Position numbers and translations under genes: made by a program
Origin: Malonomonas rubra DSM 5091
Lineage (GTDB): Bacteria; Desulfobacterota; Desulfuromonadia; Desulfuromonadales; Geopsychrobacteraceae
Length of the DNA stretch: 64,000 nucleotides
Assembly (NCBI RefSeq): GCF_900142125.1
Contig: NZ_FQZT01000001.1
Span: 186,001-250,000, forward strand
Direction: 5' to 3'
In this document: piece by piece, positions 23,419 to 30,595 of the stretch
Layout of the letters: each line of letters begins with the position of its first letter
Numbering within the stretch: the first letter of the stretch is position 1
The notes under the pieces: model-generated
The model's database searches: none
Seen by the model: the letters and a program-made list of their open reading frames with translations, nothing else
Told to the model about the DNA's origin: nothing

Positions 23419-23553
23419 ATTTAAAGAATCCCTATGGCTTAAAAAAGGTGCGCGATGTTACCACGCAAGCACGGGTTTGCAAAGGTGGATACTTGACCAT
23501 TGCTGCGCCAGCGTGTACACAATGAGAATCATCCCAACTGCTACAGGAATCCG

Positions 23554-24510
23554 ATGTCTACGCTTCTCGAAGTCAAAAATCTCAAGAGTTATTTTTTCAC
23601 CCGTGCCGGGCTGGTAAAAGCAGTCGATGACGTCAGCTTTGCCATCGCTAAAGGGGAAACCCTGGCGCTGGTCGGCGAGTCGGGTTGCGGCAAATCGATG
23701 ACCGCGTTGTCACTGTTGCGGCTATTGCCGGAACCAGGCAAAGTCGTCAATGGAGAAATACAACTGCTGGGACGCGACATGCTGCGCCTTCCCGACCTGG
23801 AAATGCGTCGTATTCGCGGCAACGAGATTTCGATGATTTTTCAGGAGCCGATGACGTCGCTCAATCCGGTACTTAAAATCGGCGAACAGATTGCCGAGGT
23901 GCTGCGCCTGCATGAAGGGCTGAGCGAGCAGAATGCTCTCGACAAATCGGCCGAGCTGCTCAGGCTGGTCGGCATTTCCGACCCGCAGCGGCGCCTGCGC
24001 GATTATCCACATCAGCTCTCCGGTGGCCAGCGCCAGCGCATCATGATCGCCATGGCACTGGCCTGTGATCCGCAGCTGCTGATCGCCGACGAACCGACCA
24101 CTGCCCTCGACGTGACCATCCAGGCGCAGATCATGGACCTGCTGCAGCGCCTGAAGCAGGAAAGACAGATGGCAACCTTGCTGATCAGCCACGATCTCGG
24201 CGTTGTTGCGGGCAACGCCGATCGGCTGGCCATCATGTATGCCGGCAAAATTGTCGAGAGCGGTCCGGTCCCAATGCTGTTCGAAAATCCGCTACATCCT
24301 TACACACAGGGGCTGCTCAACTGCATTCCGCGGCCTGGGCAGAAAAGTGCCTTGCCGACCATTCCGGGACAACTGCCGAATGTCGGCGAAAACCAGGAAG
24401 GCTGCCTCTTCCTCGACCGTTGCGACAGGCCCTGCGGCCCGTGCGGTCACCAGACACCGGAGCTACAGGAAATTGAACCGGATCACTGGGTCCGCTGCTG
24501 GAGATATTGA
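23554..24510 (+). CDS. dppD: Di/oligopeptide ABC transporter ATP-binding protein (DppD/OppD type)
   Basis: A 318-residue ABC ATPase. Walker A is GESGCGKSM, the Q-loop is [12 protein letters not shown], the signature [15 protein letters not shown], and Walker B plus D-loop [13 protein letters not shown]. The C-terminal oligo_HPY extension has the Cys cluster [17 protein letters not shown], typical of peptide and nickel importers and in some homologues a [4Fe-4S] ligand set. The start is at 23554 after AGGAAT; an in-frame ATG at 23500 has no ribosome site. A weak promoter (TTGACC at 23493) lies upstream. The second ATPase overlaps by 1 nt. No permease or binding-protein gene is adjacent, so the membrane part must be encoded elsewhere. 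Confidence 0.9.
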
Positions 24511-25496
24511 TGTCTTTGCTCGACGTACGCAATTTGCGCAAAAGCTTCCGCACGACTGATGCATTCGGCCGCTCGAAAGGCAGGCTGGTCGCGGTTGATG
24601 ATGTCTCTTTCACCCTGCAGGCGGGTGAAACGCTCGGTCTGGTCGGCGAATCGGGCTGTGGCAAATCGACCACCGGCAAACTTGTCATGCAGTTGCTGCA
24701 GGCGGAACAAGGAGAGGTTTTGTTTGAAGGGACCGACCTGCGCAAACTCACCCCGCGACAGATGCGCCCTTACCGCCGCCAGATACAGATGATCTTCCAA
24801 GATCCCTTCTCTTCGCTCAACCCGCGCATGACTGTGACCGACATCCTCAGTGAACCCTTTATCATTCATAAGCTGGCACCCAAACGGGAGATCCGTGATC
24901 GGGTGATCCAACTGTTGGAGAAGGTTGGTCTGAAAGCGGAACATGAACTCCGCTACGCCCACGAATTCTCCGGCGGACAGCGGCAGCGGATTGGTATCGC
25001 CCGGGCTTTGGCGGTACAGCCAAAATTGATTATCGCCGATGAACCGGTCTCCGCTCTCGATCTCTCGGTCCAGGCACAGATTCTTAACCTGCTCCGCGAA
25101 ATTCAGCAGGAAAACAATCTCAGTTACCTGTTCATCGCCCACGATCTATCGGTGATCGAGCACGTCAGCAATCGCATCGCGGTCATGTATCTTGGCAGAA
25201 TCGTTGAAACAGCCGGTGCAGAAGATCTTTACAGGTCTCCACAGCATCCCTACACCGAAGCGCTGCTCAACGCGGTTCCACTTCCCGACCCCGGACATCC
25301 ACGGCCGATACCACTGACCGGCGAAATTCCTTCGCCGATCGATCCTCCCAGTGGCTGCCATTTCCATCCACGCTGCCCCTATGCCGACGAAAAATGTCGT
25401 TCAGAAGCACCGATCTTGACTGCCTCAGTAGGCAACCGTCAAGTCGCTTGCCACCATTTCGATCAGGTTGGACGCTACCTGCGTCACAGATCCTAA
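24510..25496 (+). CDS. dppF: Di/oligopeptide ABC transporter ATP-binding protein (DppF/OppF type)
   Basis: A 328-residue partner of the preceding ATPase, with the ATG overlapping the upstream stop (TGATG). Walker [13 protein letters not shown]-loop [12 protein letters not shown], signature [15 protein letters not shown], Walker [13 protein letters not shown] and the oligo_HPY tail [16 protein letters not shown] are all intact. Together the two form the usual hetero-dimeric nucleotide-binding pair of Dpp/Opp importers. The stop is 2 nt before the -35 of the next promoter; no terminator hairpin is seen, so read-through into the hydrogenase-like regulator is possible. Confidence 0.9.
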
Positions 25497-25498
25497 AC

Positions 25499-25527
25499 TT
25501 GACATATTGTGCCACCACTGGCACAAT
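25499..25527 (+). promoter_or_regulatory. Sigma-70 promoter with a perfect 22-bp inverted-repeat operator in its spacer
   Basis: TTGACA (25499-25504), exactly 17 nt, then CACAAT (25522-25527). The palindrome ATTGTGCCA-CCAC-TGGCACAAT (25506-25527) has perfect 9-bp arms and fills the spacer and -10. The position is that of a repressor site. The same half-site TGTGCCA/TGGCACA recurs three times downstream of the regulator gene (27862-27987), so the bound protein is most simply the regulator encoded immediately downstream, repressing itself. Confidence 0.7.
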
Positions 25528-25559: not shown

Positions 25560-27857
25560 ATGCAAAATCCAAAATGGTCAGGACCGATTGCAACCATTCG
25601 CGAACGCTGTCGCAAATGCTACGCCTGTGTACGCAACTGCCCGACCAAAGCGATCGGGGTTTTCCAGGATGCCGCTGAAGTTATCCACCACCGCTGTATC
25701 GGCTGTGGCAAATGCCTGCAAGTGTGTTCACAAAATGCGAAGGTGATTGCTGACGCGATCAAGGAAACTGAAAAGATTCTGCAGGGAAAGCAACCGGTTG
25801 TCGCGGTCCTCGGCTGTTCTTTTCCGGCATTCTTCTACGATGTCGACCCGGCTCAGATGGTGACGGCACTTCGCAGGATCGGCTTTGACGAAGTACTTGA
25901 AGGGACTGCCGGAGTTGAAATGATCGCTCCGGAATACCGTGAGCTGATCAACAAAAAGAATGACTTCCCACTGATATCCAGTCATTGTCCGACAGTCGTT
26001 GACCTCATCGAACGACACCATCCAAGCTTGTTGAAAAACCTGGTTCCGGTTGTATCACCGATGGTAGCCATCGGCCGATTTATCAAGGCTCATCGCGGCA
26101 AAGAAGCCAAAGTTGTTTACATCAGCTCCTGCATCGGCGGGAAGTTCGAGGTCACGTCCGAGTCAGTTCAGGGCGCCATCGACAGCGTCCTGACCTACAG
26201 CGAACTGAACCGGATGCTGAAAGAGCGCAACATCGATCCACACCGGCTGGCAAAGACTCCCTTTTCAGGCTTGCCGACCAGCACAGGGCGCACGTTTTCT
26301 ATCTTTGGTGGCCCTTTCAACAACTTTGGCATCGTCAATAACGGGCTCGACCCGAATTTTGTCGCCACTGTCGGCGAAGAAGCCAGTCTCGAAGTCATTC
26401 ACGACCTTGCTGCCGGACGGATTTCGCCGCAGTATGTCGATGTCCGCTTCTGTAACGGGGGATGCATCGGCGGCCCCGGACGAACCAACCGGCTGACATC
26501 TTTTTCTAAACGCAACCTGATCATCAACTACCGCAAGCAATCGATTCCTTACAAGCCGTCGCCACATTACCTTAAAGCCCCTGAAGACCTGAAACTCGAC
26601 CGCACTTTCAATAATCGCCAGCACCAGTTGGAACGACCGAGCGGCGATGCGATCCGGCGCATTCTGAACGAAACGGAAAAATTTAACGAGCAGGATGAAC
26701 TGAACTGCGGCAGCTGCGGCTACGCGACCTGCCGCGAGCATGCCGTAGCGGTCTACCAGGGCTTGGCAGACACGCGCATGTGCCTGCCATTTTCGATGAA
26801 CCAGCTGGAAGAAGACCGCACCAGCCTGGAACAGAAATACGATCTTGCAAAACGCGCACTTGACCAGGAATATGCCGGCACCACGATAATCGGCAACGAC
26901 ACCCGCACACAGGGGGTTTTGCACATGATCAAGCAGGTCGGTCCGACACCGACCTCGGTTCTGATTCGCGGGGAAAGCGGCACAGGTAAAGAGCTGACCG
27001 CCAGAGCCATCCACGAAGCTAGTTTGCGTGCCGAAAAACCACTGGTCACCGTCAACTGTACCACTTTGACCGACAGCCTCCTGGAGAGTGAACTGTTCGG
27101 CCATAAAAAAGGTTCTTTTACCGGCGCGGTCAAAGACAAGAAAGGCCTTTTCGAAGCAGCTGCTGGTGGCACCATCTTCCTTGACGAAATAGGCGACATT
27201 ACCCCAAAACTGCAAGCAGAGCTGCTACGCGTGCTCGACAGCGGCGAGATCAAGCCGGTCGGCAGCAACAAAACGATAAATGTTGATGTCCGCATTATAG
27301 CTGCAACCAACAAGGCGCTGGAAGAAGGGATCGCCCAAGGCTGGTTCCGTGAAGACCTTTTCTACCGCATCAACGTTTTCACCATCACCCTGCCGCCATT
27401 GCGCAGCCGCTTGAATTCTCTGCAGCAGCTGGTTGACCATTTCCTTAACCTGGCCGCGCGCAGGCTGAATAAAACCATTCACAAGATAGATGACAACGCC
27501 CGCCAGGCGCTGACGTGCTACCACTGGCCCGGTAATATTCGTGAGCTGCAGAACATTATCGAACGCGCTGTTGTCCTTTCTCCCGACCAGGTCATCAGGT
27601 TGGAACAGTTGCCGGTCGTTTTTGGCGAGCTGTTGCGAAAGAACCAGGGAGCCACCAGCGCAAGAGATACTGGCCTACGCCAGCAACGCGACCTGCAGGC
27701 CGGTAAAATTGAAGCCGACTTGCTAATTCATTTCTTGCGTGAATCAGCAGGCAATGTCTCTGCGGCTGCAAGGCTGGCCAACATTCCCCGGCGAACTTTT
27801 TACCGGATGCTTGAACGACAGAAAATTGATAGTAAGGCCTACCGTGACAAAAAATAA
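25560..27857 (+). CDS. [FeFe]-hydrogenase-like sensor fused to a sigma-54 activator (AAA+ and Fis-type HTH)
   Basis: A 765-residue protein. Ferredoxin-like domain: Cys17/20/23/27 and Cys46/49/52/56. The [FeFe]-hydrogenase large domain (about 78-370) keeps the four H-cluster cubane ligands: Cys143 in SSHCP, Cys191 in SSCIGGKFE, Cys298 and Cys302 in FCNGGCIGG. The proton-relay Cys of TSCCP is His142. A Fes-type [4Fe-4S] domain (CGSCGYATC, about 400-435) follows. Then comes an AAA+ sigma-54 domain (about 455-690): GESGTGKE, the sigma-54-contact loop GSFTGA, FLDEIGD. The C-terminal HTH_8 (NVSAAARLANIPRRTFYRML) binds DNA. ATG at 25560 after AAAGGATAGGG. Catalysis is unlikely; sensing H2 or redox state is inferred. 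It probably binds the TGTGCCA repeats at both ends of its gene. Confidence 0.9.
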   Translation: MQNPKWSGPIATIRERCRKCYACVRNCPTKAIGVFQDAAEVIHHRCIGCGKCLQVCSQNAKVIADAIKETEKILQGKQPVVAVLGCSFPAFFYDVDPAQMVTALRRIGFDEVLEGTAGVEMIAPEYRELINKKNDFPLISSHCPTVVDLIERHHPSLLKNLVPVVSPMVAIGRFIKAHRGKEAKVVYISSCIGGKFEVTSESVQGAIDSVLTYSELNRMLKERNIDPHRLAKTPFSGLPTSTGRTFSIFGGPFNNFGIVNNGLDPNFVATVGEEASLEVIHDLAAGRISPQYVDVRFCNGGCIGGPGRTNRLTSFSKRNLIINYRKQSIPYKPSPHYLKAPEDLKLDRTFNNRQHQLERPSGDAIRRILNETEKFNEQDELNCGSCGYATCREHAVAVYQGLADTRMCLPFSMNQLEEDRTSLEQKYDLAKRALDQEYAGTTIIGNDTRTQGVLHMIKQVGPTPTSVLIRGESGTGKELTARAIHEASLRAEKPLVTVNCTTLTDSLLESELFGHKKGSFTGAVKDKKGLFEAAAGGTIFLDEIGDITPKLQAELLRVLDSGEIKPVGSNKTINVDVRIIAATNKALEEGIAQGWFREDLFYRINVFTITLPPLRSRLNSLQQLVDHFLNLAARRLNKTIHKIDDNARQALTCYHWPGNIRELQNIIERAVVLSPDQVIRLEQLPVVFGELLRKNQGATSARDTGLRQQRDLQAGKIEADLLIHFLRESAGNVSAAARLANIPRRTFYRMLERQKIDSKAYRDKK

Positions 27858-27861
27858 ACAC

Positions 27862-27879
27862 TGTGCCAAATAATGCACA
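27862..27879. promoter_or_regulatory. Upstream activator-type site 1 (TGTGCCA-N4-ATGCACA)
   Basis: An imperfect copy of the operator in the regulator's promoter, starting 4 nt after the regulator stop codon. The left arm is exact and the right arm matches TGGCACA at five of seven positions. Centred about 217 nt before the predicted small-RNA start, within the usual range for enhancer sites. Confidence 0.5.
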
Positions 27880-27892
27880 ATCCTTAGACAGA

Positions 27893-27910
27893 TGTGCCAA
27901 ACATGACACA
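27893..27910. promoter_or_regulatory. Upstream activator-type site 2 (TGTGCCA-N4-TGACACA)
   Basis: Second copy, with an exact left arm and six of seven in the right arm. Its centre is 31 bp from that of site 1, close to three helical turns, so both could bind on one DNA face. Confidence 0.6.
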
Positions 27911-27969
27911 TGGCTATTTTGCCAGTCGGGGTGGTCATAACACCAAGTCGAATTAAAATCACGCCAAAT

Positions 27970-27987
27970 CGTGCCACAAGTGGCACA
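27970..27987. promoter_or_regulatory. Upstream activator-type site 3 (CGTGCCA-N4-TGGCACA)
   Basis: Third copy, with an exact right arm and six of seven in the left arm. Its centre is about 109 nt upstream of the predicted start of the small RNA, the commonest distance for a sigma-54 enhancer. No open frame of note lies between 27858 and 28264 on either strand; these sites, the promoter and the RNA account for most of this 407-nt gap. Confidence 0.65.
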
Positions 27988-28060
27988 CCTCTTCCCTTTT
28001 GACAAAGTTGCATACCGCAGAAATCCGCCTTTTCTCGCTCTAATGTTCTAAACAAGAAAG

Positions 28061-28077
28061 CTGGCATGCCGATTGCT
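28061..28077 (+). promoter_or_regulatory. Sigma-54 (-24/-12) promoter of the small RNA
   Basis: CTGGCATGCCGATTGCT matches the YTGGCACG-N4-TTGCW consensus with one change (C to T). GG (28063-64) and GC (28075-76) are separated by exactly 10 nt, the spacing sigma-54 requires. The predicted start of transcription is about 28088. Confidence 0.8.
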
Positions 28078-28087
28078 TATATTACGA

Positions 28088-28187
28088 GCAAATGCATAGG
28101 GATTCATCCCGTTCCCGCCCGAACGGAAACAAGAAACATCCCTTTTCGCCGTCAAGGACCTCTCTCCCCTTGACGGCGTTTTTTTTT
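28088..28187 (+). ncRNA. Predicted sigma-54-dependent small RNA, about 100 nt
   Basis: The interval runs from the predicted start after the -24/-12 promoter to the end of a strong terminator. By eye it folds into hairpin 1 (GGGA-TTCA-TCCC, 28099-28110) and hairpin 2 (CGTTC-CCGCCC-GAACG, 28110-28125, sharing one base). An A-rich single strand (28126-28146) precedes the terminator hairpin. The only ATG-led frame (28093) runs straight through the terminator and has no ribosome site, so it is probably not coding. Two C-rich loops (CCGCCC and CTCTCC) could pair with Shine-Dalgarno sequences. Three GGA triplets (AGGGA, ACGGA, AAGGA) alternatively suggest CsrA binding. It could also be a terminated leader of ptsP, 78 nt further on. 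Confidence 0.65.
28147..28187 (+). terminator. Strong Rho-independent terminator of the small RNA
   Basis: CGCCGTCAAGG and CCTTGACGGCG form a perfect 11-bp stem around a 10-nt C/U-rich loop, followed by nine Ts (28179-28187). It separates the small RNA from ptsP. Confidence 0.93.
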
Positions 28188-28264: not shown

Positions 28265-30595
28265 ATGACCCCAAAAGTTCACAAAAAATCTGACAACAGT
28301 CTTGGCTTGAGCACCCTGCAAGATATCAGCGCGCTCATCCTGCAGTCGCACGATCTCGACGAAACCCTGAACAACATCGTCAAGCTTGTTTCTGATCGGG
28401 CGCACTCCGAGGTCTGCTCGATTTATTTACTTGATGATGACGCTGTCACCCTGCGCCTGCGCGCCAGCCAGGGCCTCGACCCGGCTTCGATCGGCTCCGT
28501 CAGTCTGAAAATCGGCGAAGGTCTGACCGGCCAGGTTGCCAAAGAGCAACGCTTGATCGCGCTGGAAGAACCACAGAACCATCCTCACTACCGCTATTTT
28601 GCCGAGACAAAAGAAGAGCAGTTCCATACCTTCGTTGGTATCCCCCTTTTCGACCGGACTCTGACGATTGGCGTTCTGGTCATCCAGAACCGTGATCTCT
28701 ACCACTACAGTGAAGAAGAATTATCAACGCTGACAACGATCGCCTTTCAAGTTGCTTCAATTGTTGTCAATGCCCGCTTGCTTGACACCATCGATAACCA
28801 GCAATTTCTTGAGCTTGAAACGATCGGAGCAGAGGAAACACAATCCCGCGAACTGGACACTGAAGAATATGTGGTCCTGCGTGGTCAGATCGCCTACCCC
28901 GGCGTCGTCAGTGGACAGGCCAACATTATTGATCAACAGCTCGGTTTTGCCGACATCTTCGACGAACAGGATGTCAACATCGAGGCCGAACTGAAAAAGC
29001 TGGATGAAGCACTGCGCAAGACCAGAATCCAGACCCTCTACCTGGAAAAACGGGTTGCCGACAAGTTAAGCCAGGAAGACGCGGCGATCTTCCATACCCA
29101 CCTGATGATCCTGGAAGACCGCGGTTTCATAGAACGTCTGCACGATCGCATCGAAGAGGGGCACAGCGCACCCTACGCACTGAAAAAGGTTATTGGCGGC
29201 TACCTGAAGGCCTTTGGCAAGATGGAAGACGCCTACCTGCGAGAACGCGCCGCAGACATGGAGGATATCGGCCGTCGCCTGCTGGCGAACCTGGTTGGCC
29301 AGGTCACAGAGGGCCTGCAACTCCAGCATGAAGGCATCCTGGTTGCCAAGCGCCTGCTGCCGTCCGACATGGCGATTCTTGATCACGAGTTGATTCGCGG
29401 CATGATCATCGAGTCGAATGAAGCCAATTCCCACTCGGTCATCATGGCCAAAGCCCTTGGCATTCCCGCTGTTATCGGTGTTAAAGGCGCCCTCTCGCAG
29501 ATCGAGCCGGATGCCGAACTGATCCTTGATGCCAATGCCGGGGCGATCTACCTGAACCCAAGCGATTCGATTCTCGATGAATACTTCCGCCTCGAACATG
29601 ATCGCCTGCAGGAGAAGGAACGTCTCGACAAGTTACGTGAGGTTCCGGCGACAACCCGCGACAATCAGCGGGTCATGCTGCGCGCCAACATTGGCCTGAT
29701 CAGCGACATCAACATCGCGCGAAAAAATGGCGCTGAAGGGGTCGGCCTCTACCGAACCGAATTCCCCTACATGGCACGAAGCAGTTTCCCCGACCGGGAA
29801 GACCAGTACCAGCTCTACAAACGCGTTATTGAAGACTTCAAGGGCGAACCGGTCACTATCCGCACCCTCGATATCGGTGGCGACAAAGCCCTGCCCTACT
29901 TCACTCCGCCGCAGGAAGACAATCCCTTTATGGGCTGGCGTTCGGTCCGTGTCAGCCTGGACAACCGGGAAATTTTCCAGACCCAGATCGAAGCGATCCT
30001 GATGGCGGCCGTGCATGGTCCGATCCGCCTCTTGTTCCCGATGATTTCCAATTTCGAGGAGATCCGCAGCTGCAAAGAGATTGTCCACGAAGCCAAGCAG
30101 AACCTGAAACGGCTCGGCATTCCCTATGAAGAAAATATTCCACTGGGGGCGATGATCGAAGTCCCGGCTGCAGTGCGCATTTCGCCACACCTGGCCAAAG
30201 AGGTCGATTTCTTTTCCCTCGGTACCAACGATCTGGTGCAATACCTGCTCGCGGCAGACCGTGGCAACAACCTGGTCGAACGTTACTACGACCCATTGCA
30301 CCCTGCCGTGCTGCTGTCGATCGAATATCTGGCACAGGTGGCAAAGCAACACGACACCGACATTTGCCTGTGTGGCGAGATGGCTACTGACCCTGCCTGC
30401 CTGCTGGCGCTGATCGGCCTCGGCATACGCCAGTTTTCGATCTCGGCACCCTACATTCCGCGGCTGAAAGAATTTATCAACTCGATCGACAGTACAGAAG
30501 CGACAAAGCTGGCAGCAGAAATACTAACCCTGCCAGAAAGCAAAGCGATTCGCGCAAGACTGCTGGAAAAGATCGATAATTTCTCAGCTAACTAG
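28265..30595 (+). CDS. ptsP: Phosphoenolpyruvate-protein phosphotransferase PtsP (enzyme I Ntr)
   Basis: A 776-residue protein. An N-terminal GAF domain (about 15-165, DISALILQSHDLDETLNNIV) precedes the enzyme I body. The phospho-His lies in SNEANSHSVIMAKALGIPAV. The PEP-binding elements are VGLYRTEFPYM, TLDIGGDKALPYF, SLGTNDLVQYLLAADRGN and the catalytic Cys in CLCGEMATDP. It transfers phosphate from PEP to NPr in the nitrogen PTS, a regulatory relay often tied to sigma-54 genes and ion transport. The ATG at 28265 has no good ribosome site; no closer alternative fits the family start better. It shares a bidirectional terminator with the convergent phosphohexomutase. Confidence 0.93.
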   Translation: MTPKVHKKSDNSLGLSTLQDISALILQSHDLDETLNNIVKLVSDRAHSEVCSIYLLDDDAVTLRLRASQGLDPASIGSVSLKIGEGLTGQVAKEQRLIALEEPQNHPHYRYFAETKEEQFHTFVGIPLFDRTLTIGVLVIQNRDLYHYSEEELSTLTTIAFQVASIVVNARLLDTIDNQQFLELETIGAEETQSRELDTEEYVVLRGQIAYPGVVSGQANIIDQQLGFADIFDEQDVNIEAELKKLDEALRKTRIQTLYLEKRVADKLSQEDAAIFHTHLMILEDRGFIERLHDRIEEGHSAPYALKKVIGGYLKAFGKMEDAYLRERAADMEDIGRRLLANLVGQVTEGLQLQHEGILVAKRLLPSDMAILDHELIRGMIIESNEANSHSVIMAKALGIPAVIGVKGALSQIEPDAELILDANAGAIYLNPSDSILDEYFRLEHDRLQEKERLDKLREVPATTRDNQRVMLRANIGLISDINIARKNGAEGVGLYRTEFPYMARSSFPDREDQYQLYKRVIEDFKGEPVTIRTLDIGGDKALPYFTPPQEDNPFMGWRSVRVSLDNREIFQTQIEAILMAAVHGPIRLLFPMISNFEEIRSCKEIVHEAKQNLKRLGIPYEENIPLGAMIEVPAAVRISPHLAKEVDFFSLGTNDLVQYLLAADRGNNLVERYYDPLHPAVLLSIEYLAQVAKQHDTDICLCGEMATDPACLLALIGLGIRQFSISAPYIPRLKEFINSIDSTEATKLAAEILTLPESKAIRARLLEKIDNFSAN

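Follow-up and report, generated by a model that had tools for sequence, protein, structure and literature searches.

The window analysed here, a 64,000-nt stretch of the Malonomonas rubra DSM 5091 genome, harbors a gene of a one-component sigma54 activator (25560–27857), identified by its Pfam domains, by cysteines conserved in 35 orthologues and by alignment, and a ptsP-like gene (28265–30595; GAF and EI-Ntr domains according to Pfam), with a putative non-coding RNA of about 100 nt (28088–28187) adjoining the latter from the 5' side; these and the promoters, operators and RNA elements described below are on the plus strand. A sigma70-type promoter of the regulator was read from the sequence at 25499–25527 (TTGACA at 25499–25504, a 17-nt spacer and CACAAT at 25522–25527), and its spacer includes a perfect operator, TGTGCCACCACTGGCACA (25508–25525), a predicted site of autorepression. 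Three further operators follow the regulator gene at positions 27862–27879 (two mismatches), 27893–27910 and 27970–27987 (one mismatch each), and after them comes a -24/-12 sigma54 promoter, TGGCATGCCGATTGCT, with GG-N10-GC spacing (28062–28077) and a predicted transcription start at approximately 28088. The elements described in the earlier note on this DNA, i.e., the repeats, the -24/-12 element, the terminator, the adjacent activator and the perfect repeat in its promoter, were all recovered in place. Genes of dipeptide/oligopeptide ABC transporter ATPases are located directly upstream of the regulator (23500–25496), an arrangement recurring in related loci.

Scoring of the operator consensus TGTGCCA-N4-TGGCACA over the window gave 7 sites with up to three mismatches against 3.15 expected, a number reached by 2 out of 100 shuffles, and the -24/-12 pattern with up to one mismatch was not more frequent in the window than by chance. 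Since the motifs taken from the window alone were modest in the case of the repeat and at chance level in the case of the promoter, the analysis relied on comparison across genomes, and it is conservation that raises the motifs of this locus far above chance. Orthologues of the regulator were searched initially in 60 relatives and then in 136 genomes of the order, and 34 members of the RNA family were used to build a covariance model, which was scanned against the same 136 genomes.

The RNA and its possible mode of action

The RNA gene is conserved across the order of Desulfuromonas-type anaerobes: matches to the RNA model at E ≤ 0.01 were present in 98 of the 136 genomes scanned, about 88 of them strong and normally with a single strong copy per genome, and the window RNA itself scored 93.1 bits. 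When 395 genomes sampled from the phylum were scanned, no convincing match was found outside the order. The weak matches outside the order (G358, G171), as well as minor ones in G035 and G025, turned out to be unrelated terminators or coding ends lacking a promoter. Rfam release 15 produced no matches at the gathering score in the window and in 20 loci, including to the GlmY/GlmZ and Qrr families; the matches visible at the E-value level (LhrC, anti-hemB, ErsA and others) were all far below the cut-off and were rejected.

The members of the RNA family are approximately 86–121 nt long, and the window RNA gave a better fold than shuffled versions of it (z = -4.56). Its 5' stem-loop (28098–28143) consists of an outer helix (28098–28103/28138–28143) and an inner hairpin (28109–28114/28121–28126) with the C-rich loop CCGCCC; among the members a 5' stem-loop is seen repeatedly, its outer helix being of the GGG/CCC type, with weaker support outside the window's own family (mean z = -1.28). 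The terminator (28147–28187) is formed by a perfect 11-bp stem (28147–28157/28168–28178) followed by nine T residues (28179–28187). In the alignment 97% of the terminator stem cells were paired and 7 of the 11 pairs showed changes on both sides, with 49 such cells observed against 14.8 in shuffled alignments. The terminator loop, ACCTCTCTCC in the window (28158–28167), is nearly invariant among the aligned members as CUCUCUCC and is a predicted pairing seed. The combination of a -24/-12 promoter, upstream activator sites, a discrete terminator and no coding sequence points to a sigma54-dependent small RNA.

Genes for Hfq occur in 58 of the 60 genomes, including that of the window, which together with the T9 tail of the RNA agrees with the sequence features of Hfq-dependent small RNAs. 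G/A-rich ribosome-binding regions are suggested as pairing partners by the near invariance of the C/U-rich loop. The target pattern GGGAGAGAG-N-ATG gave 58 matches in 11 genomes compared to 9 for the reversed pattern, an excess of the kind explained by the Shine-Dalgarno bias. The sole recurrent target candidate, a gene of a radical-SAM protein, was rejected, as its site is not kept in the relatives, and a ranking of the window genes by duplex energy was uninformative because it ignores internal structure. This limited search in 11 genomes did not reveal a conserved mRNA target, which would also fit an RNA acting as a sponge for a protein, such as an RNA-binding regulator or Hfq, instead of a base-pairing regulator, all the more so as the nearly invariant C/U-rich loop is displayed on a hairpin in the way a protein site would be. 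However, the motif is present in a single copy per RNA and the GGA motifs that CsrA sponges typically contain show no conservation, so that we regard a sponge as possible but unlikely.

The sigma54 transcript might also represent the 5' leader of ptsP, with the hairpin serving as an attenuator and the activator controlling ptsP in cis, as might be expected from the position of ptsP directly downstream in most loci. Against this speak the strength and perfection of the terminator, the near invariance of its loop with no alternative pairing seen, the locus L177, where the next gene is not ptsP, and a -10-like element that ptsP possesses on its own shortly behind the terminator in most loci; the latter makes a transcript of its own the best reading for the RNA, and the leader is a quite improbable explanation. 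In two loci (L019 and L021) ptsP was unrecognisable directly downstream of the RNA terminator, its start looking degraded or rearranged.

Probable control of the RNA by the adjacent regulator

A covariance search beside homologous regulators, suggested in the earlier note, demonstrated a tight linkage: in 80 of the 81 orthologues whose identity was 59% or higher the RNA was found downstream of the regulator on the same strand at a distance of 187–678 nt, and the remaining orthologue stops at a contig border with its RNA located on another contig. All 34 regulator-bearing loci had at least one operator upstream of the RNA and 32 had at least two, on average 2.6 per locus against 0.025 expected. 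The operators clustered at three fixed registers, approximately -225, -194 and -115 from the RNA start, which correspond to the three operators of the window in their order, and the -24/-12 element was present at the equivalent place in the 34 aligned loci.

The same association was followed in genomes where parts of the system had been lost. Seven genomes retained the RNA without the regulator; the operator was absent in five of them and a single one was left in two, and at least five of the seven loci still had a recognisable -24/-12 element. Diverged regulator copies of family f4 were only 40–44% identical, and in the two that were read, L052 (G039) and L182 (G120), the GAFTGA sigma54-contact loop was lost, ptsP followed directly behind and the RNA model gave no match. 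This pattern of joint losses, of operators with the regulator and of the RNA with the GAFTGA loop, is the strongest indirect evidence for binding of the regulator to the repeats and for sigma54-driven synthesis of the RNA. Persistence of the RNA in the seven regulator-less genomes implies either a different activator capable of driving it or decay of the RNA there. In these loci (L173, L174, L175, L176, L177, L178 and L184) the RNA has peptide ABC transporter genes on one side and in most cases ptsP on the other. An operator-like site with one mismatch is still present upstream in L052 and L182, and in another locus, L027 (G022:C157), the regulator frame contains an in-frame TAA, and the RNA remains together with one or more operators.

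The regulator also has the properties of an enhancer-binding protein: a sigma54 AAA+ domain (PF00158, 228 bits), a Fis-type HTH (PF02954) and, in the window protein, the loop GSFTGA, which is listed among the functional variants of the GAFTGA-type loop (PMC4641369); the FTGA part was invariant among 18 aligned orthologues. Altogether, the 80 linked pairs and the strong excess of operators lend firm comparative support to the proposal that this is a sigma54-dependent small RNA gene under an adjacent [FeFe]-hydrogenase-like activator, and judging from these genomic patterns the regulator almost certainly switches the RNA on through sigma54.

The operator upstream of the regulator itself was present in 30 of 33 orthologous upstream regions, and a -35-like element just upstream of this operator in 27 of the 33 loci. 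From this anatomy the regulator appears to repress itself via an operator placed inside its own sigma70-type promoter. A wider regulon was rejected on the basis of the operator search: the other sites with up to two mismatches read in this genome were located within ORFs or were terminator-like, none of them near a sigma54 promoter. Since no other operator-bearing sigma54 promoter was found in this genome, the circuit looks dedicated, and the RNA appears to be the only output of the regulator besides itself.

The hydrogenase-like input domain

According to Pfam, the regulator consists of Fer4 (two [4Fe-4S] sites), Fe_hyd_lg_C, a C-terminal FeS domain, the sigma54 AAA+ domain and HTH_8. Three sets of cysteines were invariant in 35 orthologues: 17/20/23/27 and 46/49/52/56 in the ferredoxin domain, 143/191/298/302 in the H-domain and 383/386/391/408 at the C-terminal side, the latter with the spacing C-x2-C-x4-C-x16-C. 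In the alignment, C299 was absent, being replaced by an invariant His, and Ser took the place of M353. Such a C-terminal motif, lack of C299 and Ser for M353 are marks of the sensory [FeFe]-hydrogenases of groups C and D, specifically of group D (PMC8163306). With its H-cluster cysteines, two N-terminal [4Fe-4S] sites, C-terminal motif and C299/M353 changes, the regulator would belong to group C/D by sequence. The putative sensory hydrogenase TamHydS of group D (M2e) has the same two N-terminal [4Fe-4S] motifs, H-domain cysteines, C-terminal C-x2-C-x4-C-x16-C, lack of C299 and Ser at M353 (PMC8163306); in contrast to TamHydS, the regulator is fused directly to the sigma54 AAA+ and HTH domains and, in view of the maturase distribution described below, probably has no H-cluster. 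An AlphaFold model of the sensor half was of moderate confidence (mean pLDDT 68), and the best 50 matches of a fold search were all to the AAA+ half.

In the sample of 60 genomes, none of those carrying both a regulator orthologue and the RNA had the maturases HydF or HydG. These exceeded the cut-off in two of the 60 (G039 and G059), which had either a diverged regulator copy or no copy, and neither of which had the RNA. The capacity for H-cluster assembly, judged by HydF and HydG, was consequently lacking, so that a canonical H-cluster is not to be expected, H2 sensing is unlikely and redox sensing by [4Fe-4S] clusters is the better guess. An H-domain with a complete H-cluster, by which H2 (or CO) would govern the RNA synthesis, might still be argued for from the retention of all H-cluster cysteines and the group C/D sensory signature, but it would need an unknown maturation route besides being at odds with the maturase distribution, and we consider it very unlikely. 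Of the earlier proposition that H2 or redox state is converted into RNA synthesis, the H2 part is not borne out and the redox part is the reading that we prefer. From the cysteines and the missing maturases, the regulator is more likely an Fe-S redox sensor with [4Fe-4S] clusters and without the [2Fe] subcluster, and, as a derivative of a hydrogenase, it has probably lost the ability to handle hydrogen. A precedent for such a protein is provided by the eukaryotic hydrogenase-like Fe-S assembly proteins Nar1/IOP1/NARFL, which have no H-cluster. They resemble the proposed regulator in combining the hydrogenase fold and [4Fe-4S] sites with the lack of the [2Fe] subcluster and, unlike it, are not transcription factors.

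The sister order, known systems and the proposed circuit

Other families of the class, for example in the Geobacter-type sister order, also possess the regulator, which was present there at 55–59% identity in well over 100 genomes (one of the records being Geobacteraceae bacterium GWC2_53_11); 20 such loci were read. An operator was located downstream of the regulator in 19 of these 20 loci, and a TGGCAC-type promoter with GG-N10-GC spacing in about 13. The RNA model did not match in any of the 20; instead, the transcript is predicted to encode in 17 of them a conserved ribbon-helix-helix protein of about 61 aa (MGRMRENPRYNVISMRISDEERE...), assigned by Pfam to RHH_1 or DUF6290. The protein gene in place of the RNA, with operators and promoter position unchanged, was noted in L058 and L275–L294. 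The RNA-bearing order yielded no close homologue of the protein (best 26–43% identity, 21–39 bits). Although its position in the sister order might hint at a short peptide encoded by the RNA as well, such a small-protein gene is extremely improbable, because the reading frame is shifted even among congeneric species, neither an ORF nor a peptide is common to the RNA members and many of them do not possess any ORF of at least 15 aa, which upholds the earlier statement that the transcript has no coding sequence.

With the same regulator, operators and sigma54 promoter in both orders, the switch seems to have a protein as its output in the sister order and an RNA in the order of the window. This leads to a broader proposition, for and against which we see even odds, that a cofactor-less hydrogenase acts throughout the class as an Fe-S redox switch and has essentially a single output in each genome, which was swapped between the 61-aa ribbon-helix-helix protein and the RNA, the operators and the sigma54 promoter remaining unmoved.

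Small RNAs driven by sigma54 are known from the enterobacterial GlmY/GlmZ and the Vibrio Qrr systems. Like the RNA described here, these are discrete small RNAs with a -24/-12 promoter and activation by an enhancer-binding protein, but their activator is a phosphorylated response regulator, in place of the one-component Fe-S/hydrogenase-like protein at this locus; furthermore, the activator here, unlike theirs, seems to be dedicated to its RNA, and there is no Rfam match between them. Four sigma54-dependent ncRNAs, DVU0653, DVU0679, DVU1419 and DVU2359, have been described in Desulfovibrio vulgaris, and three of those (DVU0653, DVU0679 and DVU2359) are encoded beside a gene of an enhancer-binding protein, as in our case (PMC4641369). 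The D. vulgaris sensors are two-component receivers or PAS/GAF proteins by the domain tally of that work, whose text does not mention a hydrogenase (PMC4641369). The 395 genomes of the phylum gave no strong RNA-model match outside the order. Efforts to delete rpoN in Geobacter sulfurreducens are reported to have failed (PMC4641369). In the literature, with few subscription journals covered, neither this RNA nor any sigma54-hydrogenase fusion having an RNA as its output was found described before, in line with the earlier note, which knew of no sigma54-dependent small RNA wired to a hydrogenase-like sensor. Sigma54 small RNA circuits as such are already known, and what appears to be new, as none was found, is a hydrogenase-derived sensor as the driver and an RNA outside the Rfam families.

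Our main reading, with a probability of roughly 0.85, is a dedicated one-component circuit, in which a degenerate group-D-type hydrogenase activator would act through sigma54 to produce the ~100-nt RNA and would, in addition, repress itself. The input half would be a degenerate [FeFe]-hydrogenase of the group D type with two ferredoxin-type [4Fe-4S] sites, an H-domain with four [4Fe-4S] cysteines and the C-terminal C-x2-C-x4-C-x16-C motif, carrying [4Fe-4S] clusters only and reading the cytoplasmic redox or Fe-S status. The regulator would occupy the operator within its own sigma70-type promoter, resulting in self-repression, and, given the right signal, would activate the sigma54 RNA polymerase from the three operators behind its gene. 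The predicted product, for which the comparative evidence is strong, is the single RNA ending in the terminator with the nearly invariant CUCUCUCC loop. This RNA would probably act in trans together with Hfq, through base pairing between one or more of its C/U-rich loops and G/A-rich ribosome-binding regions.

Conservation across the Desulfuromonas-type order makes the RNA a good candidate for post-transcriptional control of electron flow. The regulator may be a naturally occurring example of a hydrogenase fold that has been retained for sensing where the genome lacks the tested maturases HydF and HydG, and the RNA level would offer a direct output for asking what the group-D-type hydrogenase domains sense. 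With a protein in the sister order and an RNA here under what appears to be one switch, the swap of effectors is directly testable; if true, it would mean that RNA and protein regulators are interchangeable effectors of a single sensor.
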